A stretch of DNA of 64,000 bases from Enterococcus hulanensis. GTDB lineage: Bacteria; Bacillota; Bacilli; Lactobacillales; Enterococcaceae. Both the position numbers and the translations under genes were made by a program. This document shows positions 5,555 to 60,760 of the stretch, piece after piece. Where the stretch lies: NCBI RefSeq assembly GCF_005405485.1, contig NZ_BJED01000005.1, positions 75,654-139,653 on the forward strand. The letters run 5' to 3'. Below the pieces are notes generated by a model that ran no database searches, was not told where the DNA came from, and was given only the letters and a program-made list of their open reading frames with translations. Numbering within the stretch: the stretch's first letter is position 1; each line of letters opens with the position of its first letter.

Positions 5555-6355
5555 ATGTCAGATTGGTTAGACGTGGCAGGCAAAAAAGTAATCGTAACAG
5601 GTGGATCATCAGGAATCGGAGCAAGTATTATCGATGAATTGCTGGATCAGGGAGTGATCGTGGCGAACTTTGATCTTCAACCTGGAAAGGTAACGCATGA
5701 GAATCTTTACTATTTTCAGACAGATATTTCGAATCGGCAGCAGGTAGAAGAAAACGTCGCAAAAGTGGTTGAAGAATTAGGGCAGATCGATGGATTAGTC
5801 AACAACGCCGGGATCAATATCCCGCGCTTACTAGTGGATAAGGACAATCCCCATGGACAGTTTGAATTATCAGAAGATGTCTTTGACAAAATGATGGCGA
5901 TCAATCAAAAAGGTCTATTTTTAATGACACAAGCAGTGGCGCGGGCGATGACGCAAAGACACGAAGGAGTAATCATCAACATGTCTTCGGAAAGCGGTTT
6001 GGAAGGATCAGAAGGTCAAAGCCCCTATGCTGCGACCAAAGCCGCCGTCAACAGCTTTACCCGGTCATGGTCTAAAGAGCTGGGAAAACAAGGCATTCGA
6101 GTGGTAGGAATAGCGCCGGGAATTATGGAAGAAACAGGGTTGCGAACGGAAGCTTATGAGACAGCACTTGCCTATACACGAGGAATTACCGTTGAAGACC
6201 TGCGAAAAAACTATAACAAAACTACGACGATCCCATTGGGGCGGAGCGGCAAGCTCAGTGAAGTCGCTGACCTAGTGTGCTATTATTTATCTGACCGGTC
6301 TAGTTACATTACTGGTGTTACGACCAACGTTGCTGGAGGAAAAACACGAGGATAA
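5555..6355 (+). CDS. gutF: Sorbitol-6-phosphate 2-dehydrogenase (SDR family)
   Basis: Short-chain dehydrogenase of 266 residues. It would oxidise sorbitol-6-P, made by the PTS downstream, to fructose-6-P with NAD. Seen: the glycine motif TGGSSGIG near residue 16, NNAGIN near 86, catalytic Ser in INMSSESG, and YAATKAA (Tyr and Lys) near 160. The NIPRLLVD segment after NNAG and the TRGI segment are typical of the GutF/SrlD group. It is the first gene of the operon, with an AGAGGAGG ribosome site. The order gutF-gutR-gutM-PTS matches the known lactobacillus sorbitol operon, which supports the assignment. Confidence 0.9.
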   Translation: MSDWLDVAGKKVIVTGGSSGIGASIIDELLDQGVIVANFDLQPGKVTHENLYYFQTDISNRQQVEENVAKVVEELGQIDGLVNNAGINIPRLLVDKDNPHGQFELSEDVFDKMMAINQKGLFLMTQAVARAMTQRHEGVIINMSSESGLEGSEGQSPYAATKAAVNSFTRSWSKELGKQGIRVVGIAPGIMEETGLRTEAYETALAYTRGITVEDLRKNYNKTTTIPLGRSGKLSEVADLVCYYLSDRSSYITGVTTNVAGGKTRG

Positions 6356-6376
6356 AAGAAAGGTGGGGGTAATAAA

Positions 6377-8221
6377 ATGGCACTGATCAATCGCTGGTAT
6401 CAATTATTGCAGCATTTTATTACTCATGATCGCCTGAGTCTGAGTGAGCTGCAAAAAATAACTGGTACAAGCGCACAAACCACCAAAAAAGCGATTCAAT
6501 TATTGAATGATCAAATGGAACGGGTCGCATTGATCGAGGAGAAAGATAATATTTACTCGCTGAAAGTAATGGATTCTTATCAGTTCTCAGAGATTATGAA
6601 CGGGAGTTTAAAACAACAAACGGATTTCAATTCAAGTACAAAGCGAATTGCCGTTTTGATTGATTGCTTCATTAATCAAGAGGATTATATCGTGATCGAT
6701 GATCTGTCGGAGGCATTAGGGGTCAGTCGTTCAACGGTCAATAAGGATTTGCGAAATTTGAAGCAATTAATGTCAAAATATCAAATTTCTTTGATTGGTA
6801 CACCTAATAAAGGCCTGCGAATAGCTGGAACGGAGTCTCAATTACGCCTGCTTTATTTGCAGCATGCGTATGACTATCTGGAACAGCCAACTTTAAGTGA
6901 GGAATTGTTGGAGCGAATTGATGAGATTGCTTTGAGTAAAAAATTGGATTTTCGCACCTTGGGTTTATTACAAAAAACGATTATTTTAACGATTCAGCGA
7001 ATCCAAGCCGGGAAGCCGTTGGCACAGGCAGTTCCGTATTATGTGAATTATTTTGCCGGCGATCGATTATTAGAAGAATTATTTGTTAGCTTGGCGACCG
7101 ATTACAGCTTGACGATCAGCAACTTTGATTTTGATTTTCTCTGTTTTCCGTTAAATATTTTCAATAATAATTTAGTTCCCGAGGAGCGGGCGGACAACAA
7201 AGAGGTTAAAACCTTGTTTCAATTGATGATGGATCAAATCAATGCTGCGGTGATCATCAATGTAGATCAAGCAGAATTGTTCCAAAATATCCGAGCACAT
7301 TTTATGTTTCTGATCAATCGAATCATTTTTCAAATTGAGACCTATGATATTTTTCGGGAGGAATTCAAACAAAAGCATGCCTTTGCTCATGAGCTGGCGG
7401 AAATAGGGGTCGCGGCATTAGCTGATTATTTACAAAAACCCAATCAGCCGTCGGAGCTTTCGTACCTAGCCATTTATTTTGAATTGGCTTTGAAATCCGA
7501 CGCGCAGCCAAAGATGAAAGAGATCGCAGTGGTCTGCAATACCGGCAAGGGAACTGCTCTCATGATCAAGCGTCAGCTGGCAACAGTCTTAGGACCAAAT
7601 ATTCGAATTGCGCATTATTCAGAGGAAGAGTATGAAACGAAGGATCTGGATCGCTACTTTGCGGTATTTACGACGATACCTTTGAAGCATACAAAAGCAA
7701 CGACTGCGGTGATTAAGCTGACGGATCTATTCAATGAAAATTGGCTGTTAAGTGAATGGAAGCGAATCGTCGCTTCAAAGGCGGCAGCGTTTGAACATAT
7801 TCGGTTTTCTTTCGAGCATTTGGATAAGCAGTTAGGTTATGAGGAAAACTTGGTTGAGCTGTTAGATAAATTACGGGACAAAAATTTGATCGATGATTCT
7901 TTTAAGAAGTACATTTTGAAAAAGGCGCAAGAAGAATCAGCAGTGATCGATAATGGCATCGCTTTCCCCCATGGGATCAATCATCAAAGCGAGGAAATTC
8001 TTGTAACGATTGGCATTTATCCAGAGGGACGATCCGTAGAAGAGATTGAACTGATTTTTCTGGTGGCTATTCCAGAGAATCTGACGTTAGCGATGGAAGA
8101 TGAATTATTGAGCTTTTACGATACGATTTTTGTTATCTCTTCTAGTGAGACCTTGCGGGAACAGGTCAAGCGGATAAACACTAAAGAAGAATACCGTCAG
8201 TTATTAGTAAAAGGGTTCTAA
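6377..8221 (+). CDS. gutR: Sorbitol operon regulator, PRD/PTS-domain activator
   Basis: BglG/MtlR-type transcription regulator of 614 residues. It has an N-terminal winged helix, a second HTH near residue 100-140 (ALGVSRSTVNKDL) and PRD-type helical regions between about 180 and 390. An EIIB-like domain follows with an intact cysteine loop (VVCNTGKGTA, near 390), then a C-terminal EIIA-like domain with the phosphorylatable His in AFPHGINH near residue 535. Such proteins are controlled by PTS phosphorylation and activate their own PTS operon. Its place between gutF and gutM fits GutR of the sorbitol operon. Start ATG 6377 has AGGTGGGGG upstream. Confidence 0.88.
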   Translation: MALINRWYQLLQHFITHDRLSLSELQKITGTSAQTTKKAIQLLNDQMERVALIEEKDNIYSLKVMDSYQFSEIMNGSLKQQTDFNSSTKRIAVLIDCFINQEDYIVIDDLSEALGVSRSTVNKDLRNLKQLMSKYQISLIGTPNKGLRIAGTESQLRLLYLQHAYDYLEQPTLSEELLERIDEIALSKKLDFRTLGLLQKTIILTIQRIQAGKPLAQAVPYYVNYFAGDRLLEELFVSLATDYSLTISNFDFDFLCFPLNIFNNNLVPEERADNKEVKTLFQLMMDQINAAVIINVDQAELFQNIRAHFMFLINRIIFQIETYDIFREEFKQKHAFAHELAEIGVAALADYLQKPNQPSELSYLAIYFELALKSDAQPKMKEIAVVCNTGKGTALMIKRQLATVLGPNIRIAHYSEEEYETKDLDRYFAVFTTIPLKHTKATTAVIKLTDLFNENWLLSEWKRIVASKAAAFEHIRFSFEHLDKQLGYEENLVELLDKLRDKNLIDDSFKKYILKKAQEESAVIDNGIAFPHGINHQSEEILVTIGIYPEGRSVEEIELIFLVAIPENLTLAMEDELLSFYDTIFVISSSETLREQVKRINTKEEYRQLLVKGF

Positions 8222-8275
8222 CGAGGCAGGTGTACGAAGAGAAAGCTCTTTGTATCAGAAAGGAATGGGTAGGAT

Positions 8276-8755
8276 ATGAATATCTTTGTTTTAGGCGCTA
8301 TTGCAATTATTGCTTACATTCTCCAAATTTTCTTAGGGATGAAGCAGATCAAAAATTTTAATTCTGTCTATATTCGAATGAAGCGTAAAGGAAAAGTAGC
8401 GATCGGCCGTCGCCCGGGAAAAATCGCTTCAGGGACGATCTTGCTATTAGGTGTTGATCATACAGGACTTATCAAAGATGCTGAAATGATGCAAGGGACT
8501 TCGATTTTTGCCCGCTTCAAACCACGTCCGCAATTTGTCGGTATTGATATCCATCACCTGACGGAAGCACCGATGCTGATGAAGGAAAATAAACTGACAC
8601 GACAAGCCGCAGCGAATGCACAAAAAATTTATTTAGAGGTCGAGCAGGGAAATCATCGAGAAGAAGCGCCTGTCTCGCCAATCTTCAATATAGGAAATCA
8701 ATTGTCCTTAATGAAAGGTACGATTCAAGCTAAATTAACTAAAAGGAGTGTTTAA
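8276..8755 (+). CDS. gutM: Glucitol operon activator GutM
   Basis: 159-residue GutM-family protein with one N-terminal membrane helix (residues 3-20) followed by a basic region and the conserved GRRPGKIASGTILLL and GTSIFARFKPRP segments. GutM proteins assist activation of sorbitol operons; the membrane anchor suggests it acts near the PTS. It lies between gutR and the EIIC gene and ends 2 bases before the latter. A paralogue of only 125 residues is at 16012. Confidence 0.87.
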   Translation: MNIFVLGAIAIIAYILQIFLGMKQIKNFNSVYIRMKRKGKVAIGRRPGKIASGTILLLGVDHTGLIKDAEMMQGTSIFARFKPRPQFVGIDIHHLTEAPMLMKENKLTRQAAANAQKIYLEVEQGNHREEAPVSPIFNIGNQLSLMKGTIQAKLTKRSV

Positions 8756-8757
8756 AA

Positions 8758-9318
8758 ATGGATTATATTACAAAATTTGCGGAAGGCTTTATGAGCCTAT
8801 TCCAAACGGGTGCTGAAACATTTATTAGTTGGATGACGGGGATTGTTCCAGTTGTTTTGATGCTGATGGTAGCCATGAATACATTGATTGCATTTTTAGG
8901 AGAAGAACGCGTAACGAAAGTCGCGAAAGTATCGTCTAAAAATCCTTTTACCCGCTATCTGGTATTGCCGTTCGTTTCTGCTTTTATGCTGGGAAATCCA
9001 ATGTCATTTACGATGGCCCGCTTTTTACCTGAGTTTTATAAGCCAAGCTATTATGCAGCGAATGCGCAATTCTGTCATACGAGTAATGGCGTTTTCCCTC
9101 ACATCAATCCCGGGGAGTTGTTTGTTTGGATGGGGATTGCCCAAGGGATCACGCAGCTGGGCTTGAATTCGATGGAGCTGGCGATTCGTTATATGTTTGT
9201 TGGTTTAGTCATGAACTTTATTGGCGGCTGGACGACGGATTTCACGACAGCGTTTGTTTGTAAACAACAAGGAATCCAGTTAAGCAAAACAGTCGATGAT
9301 GTCGCAGTGACAGAATAA
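8758..9318 (+). CDS. srlA: PTS glucitol/sorbitol EIIC component
   Basis: 186-residue membrane subunit of the sorbitol PTS (SrlA/GutA type). It begins with the family pattern [24 protein letters not shown] and then the FLGEERV loop. A conserved central segment ([14 protein letters not shown], then [14 protein letters not shown]) is shared with the paralogue at 16405. It is translated directly after gutM with an AAAAGGAG site and is followed by the EIIBC and EIIA genes. Role: sorbitol passage across the membrane, phosphorylated by the EIIB part of the next protein. Confidence 0.92.
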
Positions 9319-9338
9319 GGGAAACAGGAGGAAGAAAA

Positions 9339-10343
9339 ATGGCTTATAATAGTATTAAGATTGTAAAAGGTTCTGGCGGCTATGGCGGACCTTTAGTAAT
9401 TACACCAACAGAAGAGAAACATAAATTTGTCTATGTGACTGGCGGCGGAGACAAACCCAGTATCGTTAATAAAATTGAAGAGCTGACAGGGATGGAATCG
9501 GTCAACGGCTTTAAGACGTCGATTCCAGACAATGAAATCGCTCTTGCGATCATTGATTGCGGCGGGACATTACGCTGCGGAATCTATCCTAAAAAGAATA
9601 TCCCGACAGTAAACATTGTACCGACTGGAAAAAGCGGTCCCTTAGCACAATACATTAATGAAGAAATCTACGTGTCCGCGGTTGGTGAAAATCAAATCAT
9701 GCTGGCAGATGAATCTGAAGCGGCAGGCAAACCAGCCTTCATTACTGAAGAAAAACCAGAGCGTGAGTTTAAATATTCGACCGATAAGAAAATCACTGAA
9801 CAAAAAGCGGAGCAAAAAAGTTTTATCGCAAAAATCGGAATGGGTGCTGGTAAAGTCGTAGCGACATTTAATCAATCAGCCCGCGAAGGTGTACAAACAA
9901 TGATCAATACGGTCATTCCTTTTATGGCCTTTGTATCCTTATTAATCGGAATCATTCAAGGATCAGGGATCGGGACTGTGTTTGCAAACCTGATGAAGCC
10001 GTTGGCTGGAAATGTTTTTGGTCTAATCATCATCGGCTTTATCTGCTCGCTGCCATTCTTGTCTCCATTATTAGGACCTGGTGCAGTTATCAGTCAGATT
10101 TTGGGAACCTTGATCGGGGTAGAAATCGGTAAAGGGAATATCCCGCCGCAACTAGCTTTACCAGCGTTATTTGCTATCAATACCCAAAATGCCTGCGACT
10201 TTATTCCGGTTGGACTGGGATTGGAAGAAGCAGAAGCGGAAACAGTGGAAGTTGGAGTGCCGTCAGTCTTATATTCACGTTTCTTAAATGGTGTTCCACG
10301 GGTAGTCGTTGCTTGGTTAGCGAGCTTCGGATTATACAGTTAA
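9339..10343 (+). CDS. srlE: PTS glucitol/sorbitol EIIBC component
   Basis: 334-residue SrlE-type subunit. The N-terminal EIIB domain (to about residue 140) carries the expected cysteine in [12 protein letters not shown] near residue 71. A charged linker follows, then a hydrophobic C-terminal half with [14 protein letters not shown] and [12 protein letters not shown], typical of this family. It transfers phosphate from EIIA to sorbitol entering through EIIC. The spacing of 20 bases to srlA and 21 to srlB shows a single transcription unit. Confidence 0.92.
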
Positions 10344-10364
10344 AAAGGTTTGGAGAGATGAAAG

Positions 10365-10718
10365 ATGATTTTTGAGACGCAAGTTACCAACATTGGCCCA
10401 GAAGCCGAGATGTTTCAGCAAGAAAAGATGTTGATTTTTTTCGGCGATGATGCACCAGAGACCTTAGCGGATTATTGCTATAACATCCAATTGACACCGT
10501 CCACCGACGAGATCACAACAGGAATGATTTTTTCCTTCGATGATCAAGCGTATAAAATCACGGCAGTAGGCGATGTGGTGAAGAAGAACCTCGACGATTT
10601 AGGACATATCACCCTGCGCTTCGATGGTTCAGAAACGGCAGAGCTTCCAGGTACGCTTTATGTGGAAGACAAGGAAATGCCGACGATCACAGTTGGAACA
10701 AAGATTGCGATTAGTTAA
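10365..10718 (+). CDS. srlB: PTS glucitol/sorbitol EIIA component
   Basis: 117-residue soluble EIIA of the glucitol type; the size matches the family. Features are FGDDAPETLADYC, the DDLGHITLRFDG segment holding the probable phosphorylated His, and ELPGTLYVE. It is the last gene of the operon, followed by a long terminator. It shares the ELGHI/DLGHI region with the paralogue at 18045. Confidence 0.9.
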   Translation: MIFETQVTNIGPEAEMFQQEKMLIFFGDDAPETLADYCYNIQLTPSTDEITTGMIFSFDDQAYKITAVGDVVKKNLDDLGHITLRFDGSETAELPGTLYVEDKEMPTITVGTKIAIS

Positions 10719-10847: not shown

Positions 10848-10958
10848 GGCTTCACGAACTAGCTTTATCGGCAATAAGCAAAAACATTTCGAAATTTGAG
10901 AAGCAATTTAGAAATATTTTGGTCTTATTGCTCAAAAGCTGAGCGAGTTCGCGAAGCC
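10848..10958 (+). repeat. 111-bp palindromic repeat, copy 1 of 2
   Basis: Nearly identical to 24010-24120 in the same orientation. The whole unit folds on itself: the ends are GGCTTCACGAACT and AGTTCGCGAAGCC, followed inwards by CAATAAG/CTTATTG and an A/T-rich stem. The terminal pair is G-C here and A-T in the other copy, so both sides changed together. Lies in the 490-base gene-free stretch before mtnK. No ORF, so it looks like a MITE/REP-type element or a structured RNA. Confidence 0.85.
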
Positions 10959-11208: not shown

Positions 11209-12444
11209 ATGAAAATGACACCGAGGGAATCGGCGGCGTATCAAGAGCATTTTCTAATGGATACGCAAAGGATCAAACAATATGTTATGGAAAAATTGGG
11301 CGTTTTTCCAACTGATGCACCCTTGACCGTCACGGAAATTGGTGACGGCAATATTAATTATGTTTTTCGTGTGGTGAATGAAGCTACGCAAGAAAGCTTG
11401 ATCATTAAGCAGGCGGACGTGTTGCTGCGTTCATCTGGACGGCCATTGGCGATCGATCGAAATCGAATCGAGGCCGAGATTTTACGTTTGCAAAATGATT
11501 TGGCTCCGCAGTTTGTACCAGAGGTTTATTATTATGATCAAAAGATGCACGCGTTGACGATGGAAGATGTTTCCGATTATCAAAACATGCGCTATGAGTT
11601 GATCGATAAGAAAGTATTTCCTAATTTCAGCGAGGAGATTGCCGAATACCTATCGCGTACACTGCTTTTAACGAGTGATCTGGTTTTGGATCGCGGGGTG
11701 AAAAAGCAGCGGGTCAAAGAGTTTATCAACCCGGAAATGTGCGATATCAGCGAGGATTTAGTATTTACAGAGCCCTATGACGATTATAAGCAGCGGAATA
11801 TTTTGACTCCGGGAAATGAACGTTTCGTCAGGGAAAACTTATACGAAAATGAGCCGCTGCAAGCAGAAGTCGCGCTGCTGCGTAATAATTTCATGAACAA
11901 CGCTCAATCGTTGCTGCATGGGGACCTTCATACGGGTTCGGTTTTTATCAATCCATCCGGCTTGAAGGTGATCGATCCTGAGTTTGCCTTTTATGGACCG
12001 GCGGGGTATGACATAGGGAATGTCCTGGCGCATCTTTATTTTCCAATGGTCAAAAATCTATTTGATCCAAGCTGTGATCCTGCTTTTCATCAATGGATTA
12101 AAGAAACGATTGCGGCAGTTTATGATCAAGTTCAAGCGAAATTATCTATGTGTTACGATGAGGCTGTGACTTTTTCGTTGTATCGCAATCATGCGTTTAA
12201 GGATACGATGCTGCAGGGGATCATGGCAGATGCGGCAGGGTATGCCGGCACGGAGATCATCCGCAGAGTCGTAGGGGATTCAAAGGTGAAGGAATTATCT
12301 TTGATCGCCCTAGAGAAAAAAATCGCAGCAGAACAAATGCTGATAACACAAGGAATTCAATTAATTATCAATCGCCGTCACATTACGAGCGGCGGTCAGC
12401 TAGTCGATGGCATCAATGCACTAGACGAAAGCTTTGCTTTTTGA
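11209..12444 (+). CDS. mtnK: S-methyl-5-thioribose kinase
   Basis: Kinase of 411 residues phosphorylating 5-methylthioribose (and in some bacteria 5-deoxyribose) at C1. It has the aminoglycoside-phosphotransferase fold: VTEIGDGNINYVFRV near residue 42 as nucleotide loop, LIIKQA with the ATP-binding Lys, catalytic Asp in LLHGDLHTGS near 240, and metal-binding IDPEFAFYGP near 260. The length is normal for MtnK. It is followed by mtnA 26 bases later. No S-box or T-box leader was recognised upstream. With mtnA and a class II aldolase it forms the DHAP-shunt gene set. Confidence 0.92.
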   Translation: MKMTPRESAAYQEHFLMDTQRIKQYVMEKLGVFPTDAPLTVTEIGDGNINYVFRVVNEATQESLIIKQADVLLRSSGRPLAIDRNRIEAEILRLQNDLAPQFVPEVYYYDQKMHALTMEDVSDYQNMRYELIDKKVFPNFSEEIAEYLSRTLLLTSDLVLDRGVKKQRVKEFINPEMCDISEDLVFTEPYDDYKQRNILTPGNERFVRENLYENEPLQAEVALLRNNFMNNAQSLLHGDLHTGSVFINPSGLKVIDPEFAFYGPAGYDIGNVLAHLYFPMVKNLFDPSCDPAFHQWIKETIAAVYDQVQAKLSMCYDEAVTFSLYRNHAFKDTMLQGIMADAAGYAGTEIIRRVVGDSKVKELSLIALEKKIAAEQMLITQGIQLIINRRHITSGGQLVDGINALDESFAF

Positions 12445-12470
12445 AAAAAATGAAGTAGAAGGTGAGTCAA

Positions 12471-13526
12471 TTGGAAAGACAGGATTATACGATGCCGACG
12501 TTGTTACAATATGAAAATGTGGCGTGGTATGAAGATGGCAAAGTCCGCATTTTAGATCGGCGAATCTATCCGACTCGGGTGGAGTTTGTAGAATGTGAGA
12601 CGCATCAAGCGGTCGCGCAAGCCATCACGGACATGGTAACTCAAAGCGCGGGGCCATACACCGCAGCAGGCATGGGAATGGCCTTAGCAGCGGAAGAGAG
12701 TAAGGCGTTGGAGCCGGTTGATCAGCTCGCGTATCTAAAAAAAGCGTCTCATACGATTGCTAACGCACGTCCAACGACGGCGAATCGCATGACACTGATC
12801 ACTGAAAAATGTGTCGCAGTCGCAGAAGCAGCGTTAGAAAAAGGTGAAGATCCAACAGAGGCAATCAAACAAAATACGATTGATTCCTTGAACCGCCGCT
12901 ATTATACGATGGATCAAGTAGCAAAATATTTGATCGGAAAAATCCCAGATAATGGGACGGTTTTGACCCAGTGCTTTGGTGAGACGATCATTGGGATGCT
13001 GCTGCGTGAAGCTATCGAGCAGAAAAAAACACTGCGTTTCTTCTGTGCGGAAACACGTCCGTATTTGCAAGGGGCACGCTTAACGGCTAGTTGCTGTGCG
13101 GAGATGGGGTTTGATACGACGGTTGTTTCTGATAATATGATCGCCTATTTGATGGAACATGAAACAATCGATCTATTTACTTCAGCCGCCGATACGATTG
13201 CCCAAGACGGCTATATCGCCAACAAGGTCGGAACCTATCAAATCGCTATTTTAGCCCAGCGTTTCGGTGTTCCTTATTTTGTGACGGGAATTCCCGATAC
13301 GGATAAAACGAGTCATGAAAGCATCAAGATCGAGATGCGTGATCCTGAACAGGTGATGGAGTTTAATGGGATTAAGCATACCCTAGAGGGCGTCAAAGCG
13401 ATCTATCCGTCCTTTGATATCACACCGCCGGAATTGATCGGGGCGGTAGTGACGGATCGCGGGTTTTTTTCACCCTATGATTTGCACCGCTACTTAAAAG
13501 AGCAGCCGGAAAATAATTTTTATTGA
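12471..13526 (+). CDS. mtnA: S-methyl-5-thioribose-1-phosphate isomerase
   Basis: Isomerase of about 351 residues converting the aldose-1-P made by MtnK into the ketose 5-methylthioribulose-1-P (or 5-deoxyribulose-1-P). Seen: ARPTTANRM near residue 110, the catalytic Cys in VLTQCFGE near 167, then AETRPYLQGARLTA and the catalytic Asp in SDNMIAYLM near 230. The start is probably TTG 12471, placed 5-6 bases after AGAAGGTGA; GTG 12462 overlaps that site and ATG 12492 is a shorter alternative. The stop is followed directly by the aldolase gene. Confidence 0.9.
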   Translation: MERQDYTMPTLLQYENVAWYEDGKVRILDRRIYPTRVEFVECETHQAVAQAITDMVTQSAGPYTAAGMGMALAAEESKALEPVDQLAYLKKASHTIANARPTTANRMTLITEKCVAVAEAALEKGEDPTEAIKQNTIDSLNRRYYTMDQVAKYLIGKIPDNGTVLTQCFGETIIGMLLREAIEQKKTLRFFCAETRPYLQGARLTASCCAEMGFDTTVVSDNMIAYLMEHETIDLFTSAADTIAQDGYIANKVGTYQIAILAQRFGVPYFVTGIPDTDKTSHESIKIEMRDPEQVMEFNGIKHTLEGVKAIYPSFDITPPELIGAVVTDRGFFSPYDLHRYLKEQPENNFY

Positions 13527-13538
13527 TTGGAGCAGAAG

Positions 13539-14180
13539 ATGAAACATCTAAAAGAACGCGAGCTGATCGTTGAATATGGCAAGAAGCTCATTACCGAAAA
13601 ACTAACGACAGGAACGGGAGGCAATATCAGCATTTATTTTCCAGAAGAAGAAGCGATGCTGATCAGTCCAAGCGGGATTCCTTATTTTGAGACAAAGCTG
13701 GAAGATATTGTTTTGCTGGACCTTCAGGGAAATGTGCTGGAAGGCAATCGTAAGCCATCAAGCGAGTATGATCTCCACAGTATTTTTTACGCGAATCGTC
13801 CGGATGTCCGCTCGGTCGTCCATACACATTCGGAATATGCGACCACCTTTGCCTGTTTGCAGCAGGAGATTGAACCGCTGCATTATATTATCGGATCTGT
13901 CGGTGAGAAGGTTCGTTGCTGCGAGTACAAAACTTTCGGTACACGGGAATTAGCGGAGGAGGCCTTCAATTTTATCCATGATGACAATGGAATTTTGTTA
14001 GGCAATCATGGTGTCTTAACTATCGGGCCGGACTTAGCTAGTGCCTTTGGTGTTGCAAAGGACATCGAATTTTTAGCAAAACTGGATTATCGAGCACGCT
14101 GCATCGGAACACCGAAGTTGCTGAATCAAGAACAAATGAAAGAGGTTTTGGAGAAATTCGAGACCTATGGACAACAATAA
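13539..14180 (+). CDS. Class II aldolase of the DHAP shunt (FucA/Ald2-like)
   Basis: 213-residue class II aldolase. It keeps the catalytic Glu in KPSSEYDLH (residue 76) and zinc histidines in VVHTHSEY, with a further histidine in LLGNHGVL. In bacteria with mtnK-mtnA-aldolase operons this enzyme cleaves 5-(methylthio)ribulose-1-P or 5-deoxyribulose-1-P to dihydroxyacetone phosphate plus a small aldehyde. That role is inferred here from the operon, as the sequence alone also fits L-fuculose-1-P aldolase. ATG 13539 is chosen with GGAG 6 bases upstream; it starts 12 bases after the mtnA stop. A strong terminator follows. Confidence 0.82.
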   Translation: MKHLKERELIVEYGKKLITEKLTTGTGGNISIYFPEEEAMLISPSGIPYFETKLEDIVLLDLQGNVLEGNRKPSSEYDLHSIFYANRPDVRSVVHTHSEYATTFACLQQEIEPLHYIIGSVGEKVRCCEYKTFGTRELAEEAFNFIHDDNGILLGNHGVLTIGPDLASAFGVAKDIEFLAKLDYRARCIGTPKLLNQEQMKEVLEKFETYGQQ

Positions 14181-14227
14181 AAAGGTCGCGACTTTTGTGA
14201 AAGCAAAGTCGCGGCCTTTTGTTTTTT
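14181..14227 (+). terminator. Rho-independent terminator
   Basis: Stem AAAGGTCGCGACTTT / AAAGTCGCGGCCTTT with a 9-base loop and a T-rich tail, starting right after the aldolase stop codon. Confidence 0.93.
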
Positions 14228-14560: not shown

Positions 14561-14564
14561 TTGT

Positions 14565-14574
14565 AACATATGTT
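14565..14574. promoter_or_regulatory. Upstream CATATG palindrome
   Basis: AACATATGTT, identical to the site at 56272-56281 in front of the other SorC regulator. Lies about 40 bases upstream of the -35, possibly an extra SorC-family site. Confidence 0.45.
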
Positions 14575-14603: not shown

Positions 14604-14640
14604 AAGAAAGCGTTGACATGGTTGTTTACGGTGTTATACT
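14604..14640 (+). promoter_or_regulatory. Sigma-A promoter with cre overlapping -35
   Basis: TTGACA (14613-14618), 16-bp spacer, TATACT (14635-14640). A cre-like GAAAGCGTTGACA covers the -35 box, the same fused arrangement as at 56228-56240. It drives the DRL-like/PTS operon and predicts CcpA repression. Confidence 0.8.
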
Positions 14641-14655: not shown

Positions 14656-14685
14656 CATATGTCAAAGTCTTTGTCATATGTCAAA
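14656..14685 (+). promoter_or_regulatory. Tandem operator for SorC-family regulator
   Basis: CATATGTCAAA at 14656 and again at 14675, a period of 19 bp, just after the predicted transcription start. The 56272-56300 region has two CATATG cores at the same 19-bp spacing. The two regulators (18510 and 56351) share recognition-helix residues SRSLVSKYL, so I read both as operators for this pair. Confidence 0.6.
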
Positions 14686-14704
14686 AAAGTATGGAGGGGT
14701 AATA

Positions 14705-15955
14705 ATGACACTTTACGGGAAGCTTTTGGAACGAGAAAAAAATGGTGCGCCGATCAAGGTCGGGGTAATTGGTGCAGGTCAAATGGGATTTGGGATGATT
14801 GCTCAGATTTCGACGATTCCAGGAATGGCAGTAACAGGTATCAGCGATATCAATAAAGAGGCTGCGCAGCGTGCAGCGGATGCGTACAATGCAAGTGCAG
14901 AGAAAAAAGTGGACATTCTAGTCAGCTCAGATTTTAAAGAAATCATTCATTCGGATAAGGTAGAAGTTATTGTGGATGCGACTGGAGTGCCAGAAGTCGG
15001 CGCACAAATTTCGTTAGAAACACTGTTGGCGAAAAAACACATCGTATTGTTGAACGTGGAAGTGGATATCACGATCGGACCATTGATGAAGAAAATGTAT
15101 GATTCAGCAAACTTAGTTTATACCGGTTCTGATGGCGATGAACCTGCTGCAACGACAGAGTTGTTTGAATTCGCGAAAAGTATGGGCATGGAAGTGCTGG
15201 TCGCTGGTAAAGGCAAGAACAACAAGTTAAAAGTTGGCGCGAACCCAGATACCGCACAAGCAGAAGCAGATTCTAAGAAAATGTCCAGCCACATGTTAGC
15301 AGCTTTCCAAGATGGTACGAAGACCATGGCAGAAATGAACTTATTATCAAATGCGATCGGTTTTGTTCCTGATAAAGTGGGTATGCATGGCATCAGCGGT
15401 GACGTCGATTCAGTAGTTAAGGATTTAGACCTGAAAGAAAACGGCGGCGTCTTAGATAAATATGGTGTCGTTGAATATGTGGATGGGTTAGCACCAGGAG
15501 TGTTCGTCATCGTTAAAGGGCAAAATGATGGTGCACGTCATGAATTAAGCTACTTGATGAAAAAAGGCGACCGCGATCACCATATCTTATATCGTCCTTA
15601 TCACTTAGCAAGCCTAGAAACACCGATCACAATCGCTAAAGCAGTCTTAAATCATGATCATGCGATCGTTCCATTGGGCGCACCGATTTCTGAAACAGTT
15701 GCGGTAGCGAAGAAAGACATAAAGGCCGGAGAAAAAATCGACGGTATCGGCGGATATTGTGTTCGCGGTGTGTTAGAAACGCATGCGGATCTCGTTAAGA
15801 ACAACAATGTGCCGATTGGTTTAGTCGGCGGTTCATCTGTTGCGAAACGTGATATTAAAGACGGCACTTTCTTAACGTATGATGATATTGAAATCGATGA
15901 ATCAACAACGGTTTATCGTTTACGGAAGCTTCAAGATTCGACATTTGGTGAGTAG
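14705..15955 (+). CDS. DRL/DXR-II-like oxidoreductase with SAF domain (COG4091)
   Basis: 416-residue protein with an N-terminal NAD(P)-binding domain (VGVIGAGQMG near residue 20), a homoserine-dehydrogenase-like middle and a C-terminal SAF region (about 320-400). Blocks typical of the Brucella DRL family, which interconverts deoxyxylulose-5-P and methylerythritol-4-P, are visible: LLNVEVDITIGP, GDEPAATTELFEF, VAGKGKNNKLKVG, MHGISG, GVVEYVDGLAPGVFV and YRPYHLASLETPIT. ATG 14705 has GGAGGGG 7 bases upstream; an in-frame ATG at 14678 overlaps the operator. It heads an operon with a glucitol-type PTS, so its substrate is probably a phosphorylated polyol. Whether it is methylerythritol phosphate or something else is unknown. 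Confidence 0.75.
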   Translation: MTLYGKLLEREKNGAPIKVGVIGAGQMGFGMIAQISTIPGMAVTGISDINKEAAQRAADAYNASAEKKVDILVSSDFKEIIHSDKVEVIVDATGVPEVGAQISLETLLAKKHIVLLNVEVDITIGPLMKKMYDSANLVYTGSDGDEPAATTELFEFAKSMGMEVLVAGKGKNNKLKVGANPDTAQAEADSKKMSSHMLAAFQDGTKTMAEMNLLSNAIGFVPDKVGMHGISGDVDSVVKDLDLKENGGVLDKYGVVEYVDGLAPGVFVIVKGQNDGARHELSYLMKKGDRDHHILYRPYHLASLETPITIAKAVLNHDHAIVPLGAPISETVAVAKKDIKAGEKIDGIGGYCVRGVLETHADLVKNNNVPIGLVGGSSVAKRDIKDGTFLTYDDIEIDESTTVYRLRKLQDSTFGE

Positions 15956-16011
15956 GTAAATTTTAGGCAGATGGGGAGTCTCCTCATCTGCTTTTGGAGA
16001 GGATGTAGCTT

Positions 16012-16389
16012 ATGAGCGGCTTAGTTATTGTGTTGATCGTTTTAATGCTTAGTCAAAGTCTTTTAAGTCTTGTTCAGGTGAAATATTATCAAAGCTTCAT
16101 CAAGAAGATCACCACTGAACAAGCAGGAACAGAGTATGAATTTTATACCGAAGTTGTTAAGGGAAAAGTACTGCGGACAATTGTTGCAGTTGTTGTCGAT
16201 GCTGAGGGAAAAGTCATTCAGTGCTATATCTGCAAAGGGTTGACGATTTTTGCACGCTTTAAAGAGGAGCAGTCCTACCAAGGAGCGCAATTAGTTAACT
16301 ATCGGACAGCGGCAGAGGCAAAAAAGGCGCCGCAAATAGAAAAGGCACTGGCACAAATTTACACACGCAAATTGGAAGCGGTTACCTAA
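16012..16389 (+). CDS. Short GutM-like protein
   Basis: 125-residue relative of GutM with an N-terminal membrane helix (residues 3-22) and the family block KGLTIFARFKEEQSY, compared with TSIFARFKPRP in gutM at 8276. It is about 34 residues shorter than gutM; the basic GRRPGKIASG segment is replaced by VVKGKVLRTIVAVVVDAEG. It sits between the DRL-like gene and the EIIC gene, as gutM does in the sorbitol operon. It probably serves as an accessory activator for this operon, although the regulator here is SorC-type rather than GutR. Confidence 0.75.
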   Translation: MSGLVIVLIVLMLSQSLLSLVQVKYYQSFIKKITTEQAGTEYEFYTEVVKGKVLRTIVAVVVDAEGKVIQCYICKGLTIFARFKEEQSYQGAQLVNYRTAAEAKKAPQIEKALAQIYTRKLEAVT

Positions 16390-16404
16390 AAGGAGGATTT
16401 TATA

Positions 16405-16938
16405 ATGAAATATATCGAATGGGCAGGAAAAAACTTTATTGGTATGTTTGAAGCCGGCGGCGAACAATTCATGGGCTACATGACCGGGATCGTACCATTA
16501 TTGATCGTACTATTAACTTTTACTTATTCAGTCATTGCATTTATCGGTGAAGAACGTGTTGACAGAGCCATCCGCTATTGTTCAAAATATATGATTTTAC
16601 GTTACTCGTTGATGCCGATCTTGGCTGTTTTGATGTTGACGAACCCGATGGCTTATACGTTTGGTAAATTTGTTCGGGAAGAAGAGAAGCCGGCTTTTTA
16701 TGATGCAGCGGTATCTTTTGTCCATCCAGTAACGGGGCTGTTCCCTTATGCTAATGCAGGTGAGCTGTTTGTTTATCTTGGTATTGCAAATGGTGTGACA
16801 AAGGCCGGCTTTAGTCAGTCAAGCTTGGCAGTTCGCTATTTCTTAGTAGGGATTGTCGTGATTTTGATGCGTGGGATCGTCACGGAAAAACTGACGAAAT
16901 TTATGATGGCTAGAGAAGCGAAGAAAGCGACTGCGTAA
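16405..16938 (+). CDS. PTS glucitol-type EIIC component (second system)
   Basis: 177-residue SrlA-family membrane subunit. It shares with srlA at 8758 the MTGIVPLLIVLL-type start, FIGEERV, LTNPMAYTFGKFV and GLFPYANAGELFVYLG. An AAAGGAGG ribosome site precedes it. With the next two genes it makes a complete glucitol-type PTS distinct from the sorbitol one; divergence from srlA argues for a different substrate. The neighbouring DRL-like enzyme, rather than a sorbitol-6-P dehydrogenase, supports that. Confidence 0.88.
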   Translation: MKYIEWAGKNFIGMFEAGGEQFMGYMTGIVPLLIVLLTFTYSVIAFIGEERVDRAIRYCSKYMILRYSLMPILAVLMLTNPMAYTFGKFVREEEKPAFYDAAVSFVHPVTGLFPYANAGELFVYLGIANGVTKAGFSQSSLAVRYFLVGIVVILMRGIVTEKLTKFMMAREAKKATA

Positions 16939-16951
16939 AGGAGGAATCGTA

Positions 16952-18016
16952 ATGTACAAAACAGTATTTGTAAAACCTGGAAATAAGGGCTGGGGTGTTG
17001 GTTTGACCTTAACACCGAATGAGCAAAAAAATAAAGTTGTTTCTGTTACCGGCGGCGGTATCCATCCAGTGGCGCAGCAAATCGCTGATCTGACTGGCGG
17101 GATTGCCTGTGATGGTTTTAAGAATCAAATCCCTGAAGAAGAAACATTATGTGCGGTCATTGACTGCGGCGGAACAGCGCGAATCGGTGTTTACCCAATG
17201 AAGCGTATCCCGACAGTCGATGTATTGCCGTCTTCTCCTTCTGGTCCATTATCAAAACATATTACCGAAGATATTTTCGTTTCAGGTGTTCGGCCGGAAG
17301 ATGTGGCTGTGCTGGAAGATGCGAATCTTGAGGATCGTCAAATGGCGGCCATCAATCATGGACATGCTGAAGATGCCGAATCTGCGGCGACAACGGAAAA
17401 AATAGTGACGGAAGGTCGCGAATCGGAAGAAGAATTTAGAGAAAGATATTCGAAGATCAAAGAGGAGCATAAGGAAGAACAAGCCAAAAAAGACAGCTTC
17501 CTAGTTCGTTTCTCTCGGGGAATCGGCGGCGTAATGAGTACCTTCTATCAATCAGGCCGTGACGCGTTAGATATGCTGTTGAAAAATATTATTCCATTTA
17601 TGGCATTTATCAGTATGATCGTGGGAATTATCAATTATACTGGTATTGGTGACTGGTTAGCGAAAGTTCTTTCGCCGTTAGCAGGTTCTTTGCCGGGGAT
17701 GATCGTATTGGCCTTGATTTGTAGTATTCCGATCTTGTCGCCAATCTTGGGACCTGGTGCCGTAATTTCGCAGGTTATCGGTGTTTTGATCGGTACGCAG
17801 ATTGCGAACGGTTCGATTCCTGTCCAGTATGCATTGCCAGCGTTGTTTGCGATCAATGCTCACGTAGGTTGTGACTTTATTCCGGTTGGTTTATCACTGG
17901 GAGAAGCAAAACCGGAAACTGTGGCCATCGGAGTACCGGCGATTTTATACGGTCGGATGCTGACAGGCTTCACGGCGGTAATTTTGGCTTGGTTAGCTAG
18001 TTTCGGTATGTATTAA
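16952..18016 (+). CDS. PTS glucitol-type EIIBC component (second system)
   Basis: 354-residue SrlE-type protein. EIIB cysteine is in AVIDCGGTARIG near residue 72 (the second cysteine of the sorbitol copy is absent). A linker of about 50 charged residues (roughly 125-175) is longer than in srlE at 9339. The membrane half has [14 protein letters not shown] and [12 protein letters not shown]. It phosphorylates the incoming polyol. Spacing of 13 bases after EIIC and 28 bases before EIIA indicates one mRNA. Confidence 0.88.
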   Translation: MYKTVFVKPGNKGWGVGLTLTPNEQKNKVVSVTGGGIHPVAQQIADLTGGIACDGFKNQIPEEETLCAVIDCGGTARIGVYPMKRIPTVDVLPSSPSGPLSKHITEDIFVSGVRPEDVAVLEDANLEDRQMAAINHGHAEDAESAATTEKIVTEGRESEEEFRERYSKIKEEHKEEQAKKDSFLVRFSRGIGGVMSTFYQSGRDALDMLLKNIIPFMAFISMIVGIINYTGIGDWLAKVLSPLAGSLPGMIVLALICSIPILSPILGPGAVISQVIGVLIGTQIANGSIPVQYALPALFAINAHVGCDFIPVGLSLGEAKPETVAIGVPAILYGRMLTGFTAVILAWLASFGMY

Positions 18017-18044
18017 AAAAAGTTTGAATGGAGCGAATGGATGG

Positions 18045-18398
18045 ATGGTAAAATCTAAAATTATTGAAATCGGCAGCATGGTGCCTGCTTTTGAAGAGGA
18101 ACGCTTGATTATTTTGTTTGGTCCTTCTGCAACTGCGGAGCTGAGAGATATTTGTGTGATCCATGAATTTGAGGATCGTCCGAAAGATGCCCTGAAAGTC
18201 GGCGGAAAAGTTAAATTCGGCGATCAAGAATTCACGATCGAAGAGGTCGGCTCACAGGCAAATGCGAATTTTGAAGAATTGGGACATATTTCGATTTATT
18301 TTCGTAACGCGATCGGAGAAATTTTACCGGGAGCCATTATTGTCAGCCCGGGAGTTTTTCCAAGCTTTGAAGTCGGCGGCGTGATCGAGATTATTTAG
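18045..18398 (+). CDS. PTS glucitol-type EIIA component (second system)
   Basis: About 117 residues, the same length as srlB, with the family segment NFEELGHISIYFRN (probable phospho-His) and LPGAIIVSPG. The ATG at 18045 is preferred: it gives the family length and begins MVKSKIIEIG, matching the start of srlB. A TTG at 18024 would add seven residues. Last PTS gene before a weak terminator and the SorC regulator. Confidence 0.86.
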   Translation: MVKSKIIEIGSMVPAFEEERLIILFGPSATAELRDICVIHEFEDRPKDALKVGGKVKFGDQEFTIEEVGSQANANFEELGHISIYFRNAIGEILPGAIIVSPGVFPSFEVGGVIEII

Positions 18399-18410
18399 AG
18401 CAAAAGTCGA

Positions 18411-18439
18411 GGATGTGCCGAACACGGGTGCATCCTTTT
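18411..18439 (+). terminator. Weak rho-independent terminator
   Basis: GGATGTGCC / GGGTGCATCC stem with a short loop and TTTT tail between the EIIA gene and the regulator. Partial read-through is likely, so the regulator may be co-transcribed. Confidence 0.5.
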
Positions 18440-18509
18440 CTCCTTGCGCCCTCGCAGAATCAACCGTATAGTGAATGTGACCAAAAGTTGTTCAGAGGAT
18501 GGGATCGAA

Positions 18510-19472
18510 ATGGCTATAAAACATAATCGCGACATCGTAAAAGTAGCTACGATGTATTACAAAAAGAATTTGAAGCAGTCGGAGATCGCCAAACGTCTGG
18601 GCATCTCTCGTTCATTGGTTTCAAAGTATTTGAATGACGCAAAAAATGAAGGCATTGTTGATATTTTTATAAAGAGCGAAAGCGCCTATTCGATTGAATT
18701 GGAACTGGCTTTAGAAGAAACTTTCGGGTTAAAAAAGGCCGCGGTGCTTGATACCAGCAGTTTGCGCAAGGATGAGGTCGAACGCTTGCTGGTTCAAACG
18801 GCGATCACAGCTTTTCAAAAAGAAATCGCGAAGGCTGAAACGATCGGGCTTTCGTGGGGCAAGATGCTGCGCGGGATCGTCGATGAATATCCCTATGAGA
18901 ATCATGCGGATGCCACGATCATCCCTTTGATCGGCGGGCTGGGTTCTGAGATGGTGGATGTCCATTCCAATCAGTTGGCCTATGATCTGTCGAAAAAACT
19001 GCGGGCGAAATGCAAGTATCTATATGCGCCGGCATTGGTGGATAATGCCTTTATCAAAAAGAGCTTGATTGAAAATGACGGGATTCGGGATGTCTTGGAA
19101 GCGGGAAAAAATGTTGATTTTGCATTAGTTGGGATCGCCAGCCCTTTTTCTAAAAACAATACGATGACTGAGATCGGTTACGTCGATCAGCAGGACATTG
19201 ATGGATTGGAAAAATTAGGCGTGATCGGCGATGTCAATTCGAAATTCATCGATCAGGCAGGACAAGAGGTTTCCTGTGAGATCAATGAAAATGTAATCGG
19301 ATTAGGCGTTGAAGAGGTTCGCAAAATCTCAAATGTAGCAGTCGCCTGCTACGAAGAAAGTAAAAAGGATGTACTGTATGTGGGAACGAAGACGAAGATT
19401 TTCACTCATATTACCGTAACCGACAGTTTAGCTGAATATTTATTGGAACAAGCAAAAACCGAGGCACACTGA
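18510..19472 (+). CDS. SorC-family transcriptional regulator
   Basis: Sugar-binding regulator of about 320 residues: N-terminal HTH (QSEIAKRLGISRSLVSKYL, residues about 25-43) and a C-terminal phosphosugar-binding domain (IGLSWGKML, VIPLIGGLGSE-like IIPLIGGLGSE, ALVGIASPF, then ENVIGL). ATG 18510 is chosen because AGAGGATGGG precedes it; an upstream in-frame start at 18444 lies within the terminator region. Closely similar HTH to the regulator at 56351. Likely controls the 14705 operon through the CATATG pair at 14656-14685, with the phosphorylated PTS product as effector. Confidence 0.85.
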   Translation: MAIKHNRDIVKVATMYYKKNLKQSEIAKRLGISRSLVSKYLNDAKNEGIVDIFIKSESAYSIELELALEETFGLKKAAVLDTSSLRKDEVERLLVQTAITAFQKEIAKAETIGLSWGKMLRGIVDEYPYENHADATIIPLIGGLGSEMVDVHSNQLAYDLSKKLRAKCKYLYAPALVDNAFIKKSLIENDGIRDVLEAGKNVDFALVGIASPFSKNNTMTEIGYVDQQDIDGLEKLGVIGDVNSKFIDQAGQEVSCEINENVIGLGVEEVRKISNVAVACYEESKKDVLYVGTKTKIFTHITVTDSLAEYLLEQAKTEAH

Positions 19473-19490
19473 GTGTCTCGGTTTTTATTT
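19454..19490 (+). terminator. Rho-independent terminator
   Basis: AAAAACCGAGGCAC / GTGTCTCGGTTTTT stem spanning the stop codon of the SorC regulator. With the A-run on the left it may also serve the convergent hydrolase gene. Confidence 0.85.
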
Positions 19491-24009: not shown

Positions 24010-24120
24010 AGCTTCACGAACTAGCTTTATCGGCAATAAGCAAAAATATTTCGAAATTTGAGAAGCAATTTAGAAATATTTTGGACTTATTGCTCAAAAG
24101 CTGAGCGAGTTCGCGAAGCT
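24010..24120 (+). repeat. 111-bp palindromic repeat, copy 2 of 2
   Basis: Same length and orientation as 10848-10958 with only a handful of base differences. Ends AGCTTCACGAACT and AGTTCGCGAAGCT pair with each other; the outermost pair is A-T rather than G-C. One internal difference (ATATTTC rather than ACATTTC) improves pairing with the opposite arm. Lies downstream of the ribose operon, no ORF. Confidence 0.85.
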
Positions 24121-52480: not shown

Positions 52481-52937
52481 ACTACTGAGTAATGAAAATC
52501 AAAAATTTCTGTATTACGCCTTTGACGAAAAGGAGCAAACAGCGTTATTGACGAAAATGAGCAAGGTTTTAATTGATGCAGGCTTTGTCCACGAGAGCTA
52601 CAAAGATGCGGTGATTGAGCGTGAACGTGTCTTTCCAACGGGATTGCCGACACAAGGCATCAACGTGGCGATCCCTCATACGGATTCGATCCATGTAAAA
52701 AAGGAAGGTTTTTTAGTAGGTGTGTTAGAGCAGCCGGTCACGTTTGAAATGATGGCAAGCAAGGATGTTTTTTTAGAGGTAGAGCTTATTTTTATGCTGG
52801 CGATCAAACAGCCGGAAGACCAATTGGTGATGCTACAGAAATTGATGTTGTTGTGTCAGGATGAAAAAAATCTACAGTTACTAAAATCAAAAGAGAAGGT
52901 TGTTGAGGTGGAGGAATTATTGAAGACGATCCAGTGA
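52473..52937 (+). CDS. PTS galactitol/fructose-type EIIA component (operon B)
   Basis: 154-residue EIIA-2 protein; phospho-His in INVAIPHTDSIHV near residue 69, paralogous to 45690. Coupled to the regulator by an 8-base overlap; a 74-base gap with an AAGGAG site separates it from the EIIC gene. Confidence 0.88.
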   Translation: MNKLLSNENQKFLYYAFDEKEQTALLTKMSKVLIDAGFVHESYKDAVIERERVFPTGLPTQGINVAIPHTDSIHVKKEGFLVGVLEQPVTFEMMASKDVFLEVELIFMLAIKQPEDQLVMLQKLMLLCQDEKNLQLLKSKEKVVEVEELLKTIQ

Positions 52938-53011
52938 GGACTGGGTGCTTTGTTTGAATCTCAGGGCTTAGTCGTTTTCAAAAAATCATTTATAAAAAAG
53001 GAGAAAAAACT

Positions 53012-54424: not shown

Positions 54425-54695
54425 AAAACATATTTTAATTGCTTGCGGAACAGGTGTGGCGACATCGACGGTCGTTTGCATGCGCGTGAAGGAAGAGTTG
54501 GAAAAAAATAATATTCCAGCGACAGTTGAACAATGCAAAGTTGCCGAGCTGCCTTCAAAAATCCATGGAGCCGATCTAGTTGTGACTACCACTGCTTATG
54601 AAAGTGATGATATTCCGGTAATTCGGGCATTGTCGTTTTTGACAGGAGTCGGGATCGAGGAAGATGTACAGAAAATTATTGATATTTTGAGTTAA
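54417..54695 (+). CDS. PTS galactitol-type EIIB component (operon B)
   Basis: 92-residue EIIB with the phospho-cysteine in ILIACGTGVATSTVV and the QCKVAELPSKI segment common in the family. It is the active EIIB of operon B; a cysteine-free relative is encoded at 55503. Confidence 0.92.
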   Translation: MNKKHILIACGTGVATSTVVCMRVKEELEKNNIPATVEQCKVAELPSKIHGADLVVTTTAYESDDIPVIRALSFLTGVGIEEDVQKIIDILS

Positions 54696-54754
54696 AGGAG
54701 ACGCAGGCGATTTTTGTCTCAGCAAAACACTTAATTAGGAATGGGAGCGAGCTC

Positions 54755-56225: not shown

Positions 56226-56263
56226 GCGAAAGCGTTGACACTTGCAGCGCGGGCTCTTATGAT
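56226..56263 (+). promoter_or_regulatory. Sigma-A promoter with cre overlapping -35
   Basis: TTGACA (56235-56240), 17-bp spacer, TATGAT (56258-56263). GCGAAAGCGTTGACA is a cre-like site covering the -35, the same fusion as at 14605-14618. Drives the SorC regulator and the dehydrogenase complex genes. Confidence 0.8.
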
Positions 56264-56271
56264 GACAGTGT

Positions 56272-56300
56272 AACATATGTTAAATATAAGAACATATGAT
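56272..56300 (+). promoter_or_regulatory. Tandem CATATG operator
   Basis: AACATATGTT (56272-56281) and AACATATGAT (56291-56300), CATATG cores 19 bp apart, just after the -10. Same cores and same spacing as 14656-14685. Presumed site for the SorC regulator at 56351. Confidence 0.6.
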
Positions 56301-57307: not shown

Positions 57308-57323
57308 AAATGGAGGCGCATAA

Positions 57324-58328: not shown

Positions 58329-58382
58329 AATTGACCTTTATGAAAAATAAATACCTTAATACGAAGTAGGAGGAAGCAGATA

Positions 58383-59360: not shown

Positions 59361-59435
59361 GATGTCAGTCCAACTTTTTGCAGGACATTATGTGAGGAAA
59401 GATAAAAAAGTTCTAACAACGAATTAAAAATCATT

Positions 59436-59504
59436 GATGTTTAGTTGGATGATATACGTGGCGAGAATCAGACTTATTTTTTCGGTCTTTGAAAAAATAA
59501 ATAC
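59436..59504 (+). repeat. Dispersed hairpin element, copy 3 of 3
   Basis: GATGTTTAG, GGATGATATACGTG, GAATCAGACTTATT and the hairpin CTTATTTTTTC / GAAAAAATAA. It lies inside the dehydrogenase operon between E1beta and E2, and its hairpin ends 25 bases before the E2 start, as copy 1 does before EIIC. Placement inside an operon speaks against a terminator role with full strength. Confidence 0.65.
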
Positions 59505-59529
59505 TGAAAAACGAGATAGGAGTGAAAAG

Positions 59530-60747: not shown

Positions 60748-60760
60748 AAGGAGACTGAAT

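Follow-up and report, generated by a model that had tools for sequence, protein, structure and literature searches.

A predicted catabolic pathway for methylerythritol-type polyols linking a type II DXR, a glucitol-type phosphotransferase system and an acetoin-type dehydrogenase complex in Enterococcus hulanensis

Introduction

The closest described relatives of the gene considered here are the DRL oxidoreductases, for whose type II DXR members (DXR-II) the interconversion of 1-deoxyxylulose 5-phosphate (DXP) and methylerythritol 4-phosphate (MEP) is the published activity (PMC3847144). In that work (Carretero-Paulet 2013), which names key residues of DXR-II, the group comprises 53 sequences, 11 of them verified by complementation, and none of the four DLO1/DLO2 members tested complemented. 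The same text places B. pumilus and Listeria species other than the one treated below within the DXR-II clade, and describes Finegoldia magna as having a functional DXR-II with neither isoprenoid pathway. Here, an operon headed by a DRL gene is described in Enterococcus hulanensis, together with a second operon, SorC2-E1alpha-E1beta-E2-E3, both in a window of 64,000 nucleotides (contig NZ_BJED01000005.1, positions 75,654 to 139,653), to which all coordinates below refer; the genes of both operons, and those of the galactitol-type region described below, lie on the forward strand. The two operons probably act as a single catabolic route whose substrate is a branched polyol, most likely 2-C-methyl-D-erythritol.

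Results

In the proposed pathway, the glucitol-type phosphotransferase system (PTS) of the DRL operon would import methylerythritol and phosphorylate it to MEP, which DRL, working in the oxidising direction, would convert to DXP. A thiamine pyrophosphate (TPP)-dependent E1-E2-E3 complex would then cleave DXP, as acetoin dehydrogenase cleaves acetoin, in the predicted reaction DXP + CoA + NAD+ -> acetyl-CoA + glyceraldehyde 3-phosphate + NADH, and the acetyl-CoA and glyceraldehyde 3-phosphate would pass into central metabolism. Common sites would place both operons under the control of SorC regulators and CcpA, whose binding is predicted from the sequences. An acetoin-type complex could cleave DXP because DXP, like acetoin, is an alpha-hydroxy methyl ketone. 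In PMC3424233, a mutant E. coli pyruvate dehydrogenase (PDH) E1 (aceE) raises DXP in vivo about 20-fold, and the enzyme class can therefore make that bond. The assignment of substrates is drawn by analogy from the published activity of the DRL family and from E1 chemistry. The initial annotation of this DNA had proposed that DRL oxidises a branched polyol phosphate imported by the PTS; that proposal fits the context of the operon, the TPP-dependent complex that co-occurs with DRL and the predicted operator common to the two operons. The link with the E1 operon and a fate for DXP are additions to it.

Functional linkage of the two operons is well supported by their distribution. With the E1 type defined as an E1alpha of at least 60% identity to that of the window, a threshold set afterwards, a class sample of 398 genomes contains DRL in 39, the E1 type in 35 and a glucitol-type EIIBC above cut-off in 56 (two EIIBC rows below cut-off, G125 and G158, are left out). 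The E1 type occurs in 34 of the 39 DRL genomes as against one of the 359 others. EIIBC accompanies DRL in 35 of the 39, starting 1.7-2.2 kb from it at 34 of the 40 DRL copies, and the E1 type is found in 34 of these 35 genomes as against none of the 21 with EIIBC and no DRL; among the 56 EIIBC genomes, which are not independent, the association of DRL and E1 has a Fisher p of 1.6e-14. The pattern recurs within single genera: under genus label g32 the E1 type is present in all three DRL genomes and the 13 listed genomes lacking DRL have only paralogues of 47-51% identity, and the labels g24, g68, g54 and g79 repeat this in smaller numbers. DRL occurs in 16 of 20 genomes of the host's own genus (own genome counted), 13 of the 16 carrying an E1 of at least 86% identity and none of the four DRL-less genomes having one.

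The upstream regions of the two operons also share predicted control elements. A candidate operator, TGTAACATATGTT, lies at 14562-14574 ahead of DRL, its palindromic core AACATATGTT at 14565-14574, and recurs on the forward strand at 56269-56281 ahead of the E1 operon, where a second predicted operator, AACATATGAT, occupies 56291-56300. A promoter of the DRL operon is predicted at 14606-14640 (+), with a cre-like GAAAGCGTTGACA (14606-14618) overlapping the -35 TTGACA (14613-14618) and a -10 TATACT ending at 14640; two CATATG repeats were seen by eye 3' of it (14656-14680). The predicted promoter/operator region of the E1 operon (56228-56300, +) has the same GAAAGCGTTGACA at 56228-56240, a -35 TTGACA at 56235 and a -10 TATGAT ending at 56263. 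The name cre-like refers to a resemblance to the cre consensus. Exactly two copies of TGTAACATATGTT exist in the 4.74-Mb genome, one upstream of each operon. Among the 435 pairs of 30 upstream regions of the window, the DRL/E1 pair ranks joint second by longest common word (13 bases) and is the only pair with two 13-base common words, TGTAACATATGTT and GAAAGCGTTGACA, the sole longer word (34 bases) being a repeated intergenic element. With at most one mismatch, the operator core lies upstream of 19 of the 28 DRL copies of the genus, where five control words reach 0-1 of 28, and in 11 of 12 E1 loci of the genus, searched as whole 4-kb loci. Since TGTAACATATGTT emerged from a comparison of these two upstream regions, its rarity by itself is weaker evidence than its conservation.

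The E1 operon (56351-62152) has the gene set of a complex of the PDH/acetoin type, with E1alpha, E1beta, E2 and E3 together. It opens with the SorC-type regulator SorC2 (56351-57307), recognised by its similarity to SorCs beside DRL; SorC2 is 97% identical to its E. avium orthologue, and its next best relatives (56-64%) come from genes next to DRL in Enterococcus, Vagococcus and an Erysipelotrichia metagenome-assembled genome. Then come E1alpha of the predicted DXP-cleaving dehydrogenase complex (57324-58328; family match and tree), E1beta (58383-59360; family match and E1beta scores, none of which falls between 488 and 398 bits), the dihydrolipoyl acyltransferase E2 (59434-60747; family match) and the dihydrolipoyl dehydrogenase E3 (60761-62152; TIGR01350, 551 bits against a cut-off of 409). 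The window E1alpha surfaced in a search of 18 genomes, and in a carefully built tree of 66 rows, left from 77 matches after identical rows were dropped, it joins first its E. avium orthologue, which is not beside DRL, and then E. alishanensis, Vagococcus and the Erysipelotrichia genome. This set of five has 100/100 support and three of its members are encoded beside DRL; PDH (two rows checked) and a further E1alpha group lie across a 100/100 branch from the DRL-type set. L170 and L174, both acetoin-type E1s, are nearer than PDH, yet fall outside the set holding the window row. The window E1 thus stands apart from L170, which has an AcoR-like sigma-54 activator, confirmed by Pfam, as its neighbour.

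Alignments, used here in place of coordinates, further set these subunits apart. All 35 DRL-type E1alphas have Thr at a position occupied by Phe in 31 of 37 others, and all 35 DRL-type E1betas have Gly at one that is His, Arg or Lys in 31 of 36 others. Both positions presumably lie near the active site as it is known from human PDH, and the exchanges would enlarge it.

The DRL open reading frame spans 14678-15955, with the likelier start at the ATG at 14705, just 3' of a GGAGGGG. The product (14705-15955), a predicted oxidoreductase of MEP or a close relative of it, scores 192 bits for DRL_cat and 41 bits for SAF in Pfam and contains the three motifs quoted in the initial annotation, whose assignment to the DRL family with a SAF domain thereby holds. 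Structures 3upl and 3upy of Brucella DRL match it from end to end (E 3.5e-86; 40% identity), across the NAD(P)-binding domain, the DRL catalytic domain and the SAF domain. Nine of ten checked DXR-II residues are identical (G121, E174, F178, K191, K193, T229, H250, R320 and Y322), the tenth, V351, being replaced by Ile. An unrooted tree of 109 rows was made by a quick method, leaving out 21 near-identical DRL rows and three weak DLO-like rows; it places the window protein with Enterococcus copies in a supported set to which Listeria DRLs (79% identity to two of them) also belong, and close to Bacillus pumilus-group DRLs, in a tree without outgroup or named DLO rows and with a long-branched sole Brucella row. 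The three class rows left out (L279-L281), taken as DLO-like by weak score and compared by residues rather than with named DLO sequences, lack F178 and R320; two of them also lack K193, and two keep T229 and H250. The placement within COG4091 that had been suggested as a check accordingly groups the window DRL with the Listeria and B. pumilus-group enzymes, and it keeps the R320 and F178 absent from the DLO-like rows. By residues and tree it is a predicted type II DXR.

An Asp after strand beta-2 of the Rossmann fold generally suggests NAD use. The window DRL and nearly all Bacillota DRLs seen have Asp there, where Brucella has Ser-Ala-Arg-Arg, and the window enzyme is perhaps NAD-dependent. 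Some Enterococcus genomes encode up to three DRL copies (L061 and L065 are among such loci), possibly with different substrates, and some copies in these multi-copy genomes have Gln at the Glu174 position.

DRL is followed at gaps of 7-56 bases by genes for a GutM-family protein (16012-16389; PF06923) and the EIIC (16405-16938; PF03608, NF049923), EIIBC (16952-18016; PF03612/PF07663, NF049924) and EIIA (18024-18398; PF03829) of a complete glucitol-type PTS, labelled glucitol/sorbitol-specific by NCBIfam. Next stands the SorC/DeoR-type regulator SorC1 (18444-19472; PF04198), which has homologues beside DRL; terminator-like hairpins are predicted between EIIA and SorC1 (18409-18437) and at the end of SorC1 (19454-19486). 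This is the second glucitol-type PTS of the window, a complete sorbitol operon with sorbitol-6-phosphate dehydrogenase lying about 4 kb upstream (5555-10718). The Pfam and NCBIfam matches bear out the earlier description of an operon with a full second glucitol-type PTS and a GutM relative, and the statement that it lacks a sorbitol-6-phosphate dehydrogenase was likewise correct, that gene belonging to the separate sorbitol operon.

The surroundings of DRL were surveyed in 84,980 genomes, keeping the best 80 of at least 445 relatives, which represent 79 distinct loci; counts refer to 76 named loci, since the gene caller missed DRL in L088, L128 and L134, and several loci end at contig ends. 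Within 8 kb of DRL, EIIC/EIIBC genes are present at 60 of the 76, SorC genes at 60 and E1-complex genes at 24. Family searches on representative loci confirm E1alpha, E1beta, E2 and E3 as well as two other recurrent sets. One comprises a ketose-bisphosphate aldolase, an archaeal-type triose-phosphate isomerase (TIM) and a UPF0047/YjbQ protein (L070:6149-8214, also L075, L117 and L136); it is found at 11 loci, one of them also with E1, and may be another outlet of the pathway. The other pairs a zinc-type dehydrogenase with a 2-hydroxyacid dehydrogenase-like gene within DRL-PTS operons (L061:7510-9588, also L060, L073 and L078). At L065 and L066, SorC1-like and SorC2-like genes stand together behind DRL. 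Two of the DRL loci without PTS have isp genes nearby, that of Levyella IspD and IspF (L086:6433-7657) and that of Kallipyga IspF (L092:11109-11603); their DRLs nest within the PTS-linked group of the DRL tree, and this nesting suggests that they were recruited from catabolism into isoprenoid synthesis. In genome G199 the DRL frame begins with an EIIBC-like stretch (L048:1030-2316) and neither glucitol EIIBC nor E1 is matched, a state consistent with decay of the whole system. TIM and UPF0047 genes are found just before DRL in G017, a genome of the host's genus without the E1 type.

As for isoprenoid synthesis, the host genome (4.74 Mb, completeness 100) encodes one HMG-CoA reductase. Searches of it gave no match for IspG or IspF and none above cut-off for DXS, the best DXS hits being E1beta genes and short open reading frames whose length suggests split transketolase-like genes. 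The mevalonate route assumed for the host in the initial annotation is thus in keeping with the genome, in which neither a dedicated DXP source nor a use of MEP was found, and because HMG-CoA reductase is present and the MEP genes searched for were not found, a role of DRL in isoprenoid synthesis here is unlikely. The DRL operon is also present in Listeria immobilis, E. alishanensis and Vagococcus acidifermentans, whose genomes gave no IspF match in a search that did find IspF in Anaerococcus, B. safensis and Levyella.

Directly ahead of the E1 operon, the window encodes a galactitol-type PTS (IIA 52473-52937, IIC 53012-54424, IIB 54417-54695) and an SDR dehydrogenase (54755-55492), the four genes spanning 52473-55492. 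Further loci with a galactitol-type IIC near the E1 type are L175 of B. safensis, where IIB and a zinc-type dehydrogenase are also encoded, L291 (G033), L292 (G129) and L283 (G092); G092 is the one class genome that has an E1 of at least 60% identity and no DRL. It is only a suggestion that this PTS and dehydrogenase could be a second feeder of the E1 complex, from linear deoxypentitols or deoxyxylulose. For G179 and G085, a galactitol PTS next to the E1 genes was considered and rejected, the transporter there being an MFS protein (L288).

Other neighbours can be listed briefly. An mtnK-mtnA-class II (fuculose-type) aldolase operon at 11209-14180, directly upstream of the DRL operon, resembles the 5-deoxyribose/methylthioribose salvage set ('DHAP shunt'); the T-rich hairpin seen by eye 3' of its aldolase gene (about 14180-14226) is absent from the hairpin scan list. 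The repeated intergenic element (10924-10957 and 24086-24119) consists of 34 identical bases preceded by 60 near-identical ones and has no Rfam match; an Rfam search of the window at gathering scores gave none. At the thresholds used, neither Pfam nor NCBIfam gave a match for a 444-residue open reading frame on the reverse strand beside the E1 operon (62214-63548). The host genome has a further E1alpha-E1beta-E2-E3 cluster some 18 kb upstream of the window (L169, G000:C5:47000-66500); it is of another E1 type, with 45% identity to the window E1alpha.

Discussion

Several observations weigh against joining the two operons into one pathway. In the survey, 52 of the 76 named DRL loci have no E1 genes within 8 kb, and the proposed pathway gives no role to the aldolase/TIM/UPF0047 set near DRL at 11 of the 76 or to the dehydrogenase pair at four of the 76. 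DRL occurs without the E1 type in class genomes G157, G281 and G365, whose DRL scores are weak, in G199, and in G304, where E1 is only a partial 61% match at a contig end that the open reading frame scan did not recover; the same holds for G003, G017 and G004 (74% complete) of the host's genus. Listeria immobilis has the DRL-PTS operon and no E1 type, its E1alphas being a PDH and one other outside the DRL-type group, the latter a below-cut-off PDH match. Conversely, the E1 type occurs without DRL in G092 and, at 59% identity, in G179 and G085, near whose E1 genes an MFS transporter is encoded (checked at L288). Genome-wide, the operator at up to one mismatch is not enriched, with seven matches against nine for the reversed pattern. 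Two DRLs sit near IspF, one of them also near IspD, and because both keep the Asp after beta-2, this residue was rejected as a sign of reaction direction.

The loci lacking nearby E1 genes and the L. immobilis operon would suit another branched polyol handled by the same operons, such as apiitol (2-C-hydroxymethyl tetritol) or 2-C-methylthreitol, a special downstream complex then being optional. By the same DRL chemistry, apiitol 4-phosphate would become a pentulose 5-phosphate; such a product would not need the complex, whereas the co-occurrence with an acetoin-type E1 complex in 34 of 35 genomes fits a methyl-ketone product, and a substrate of this other kind is a minor possibility. The E1-E2-E3 operon might instead encode an ordinary acetoin or pyruvate dehydrogenase whose connection with DRL is incidental: NCBIfam calls the E1 subunits PDH-like only, and the window E1alpha shares 49% identity with one of acetoin type from B. 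safensis. Acetoin clusters, however, carry a sigma-54 activator, and B. safensis has both a DRL-type E1 and a separate E1 cluster beside such an activator, in different parts of the tree; with the shared predicted operator and the co-occurrence with DRL, this makes an incidental link improbable.

DRL could also belong to a partial MEP pathway serving isoprenoid synthesis or as an oxidative-stress sensor. According to a 2026 review, about half of the Enterococcus species analysed have an incomplete MEP and a complete mevalonate pathway, and such a role is suggested for the incomplete pathways (PMC13001223); DRL family members do make MEP (PMC3847144), and the Levyella and Kallipyga genes lie near isp genes. 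Against this stand the searches of the host genome for IspG, IspF and DXS and the position of DRL at the head of a PTS operon with a SorC regulator, and we regard this explanation as very improbable. Equally remote is a second sorbitol system, with sorbitol 6-phosphate or some other linear polyol phosphate as the substrate that DRL oxidises. It would agree with the NCBIfam names of the PTS components, but a complete sorbitol operon with its dehydrogenase is already at hand 4 kb upstream, the substrate residues named in the literature, K191, K193 and T229, are conserved in DRL, and the presence of EIIBC in nearly all DRL genomes and of the PTS without DRL in 21 others suggests a specialised partnership.

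Catabolism of methylerythritol through DRL and the E1 complex, if true, would explain the presence of DXR-II in bacteria unable to use it for isoprenoid synthesis, and linking DXR-II to catabolism through a PTS and an E1 complex gives a simple, testable pattern that predicts a new TPP-dependent activity. It would also mean that DXR-II genes are not to be read as markers of the MEP pathway or as drug targets without their context. Methylerythritol is released by plants and bacteria and is also formed from isoprene in air, and the pathway would provide a biological sink for it. The chances are about even for a wider proposal, namely that methylerythritol-type polyols are broken down here by a pathway not described before, with a DXP dehydrogenase complex as its new enzyme activity, that DXR-II is mainly catabolic in Bacillota and was recruited to isoprenoid synthesis in some lineages, and that the galactitol-type PTS and dehydrogenase form a second feeder, for linear 1-deoxypentitols or deoxyxylulose. 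In the literature search, which covered titles and abstract openings and had most subscription papers outside its scope, nothing on methylerythritol catabolism or DXP cleavage was found.

Set beside the described systems, the window DRL shares with Brucella abortus DRL (COG4091; 3upl, 3upy) the DRL_cat and SAF domains, similarity over the full length and nine key residues, and differs in the V351 to Ile exchange, the beta-2 Asp, its place at the head of a PTS operon and a host without the MEP genes searched for. DLO1 and DLO2 (Carretero-Paulet 2013) belong to the same superfamily, but the DLO-like class rows lack F178 and R320, which the window DRL keeps. The glucitol/sorbitol PTS operon (SrlA-SrlE-SrlB with GutM) likewise unites EIIC, EIIBC, EIIA and GutM, whereas the DRL operon has no sorbitol-6-phosphate dehydrogenase, is headed by DRL and carries a SorC-type regulator. 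The acetoin dehydrogenase complex (AcoABCL) has the same make-up of E1alpha, E1beta, E2 and E3, with about 50% E1 identity, and the window complex, by the present proposal, would likewise cleave an alpha-hydroxy methyl ketone; its E1alpha falls in another part of the tree, and its operon has a SorC regulator in place of the sigma-54 activator.

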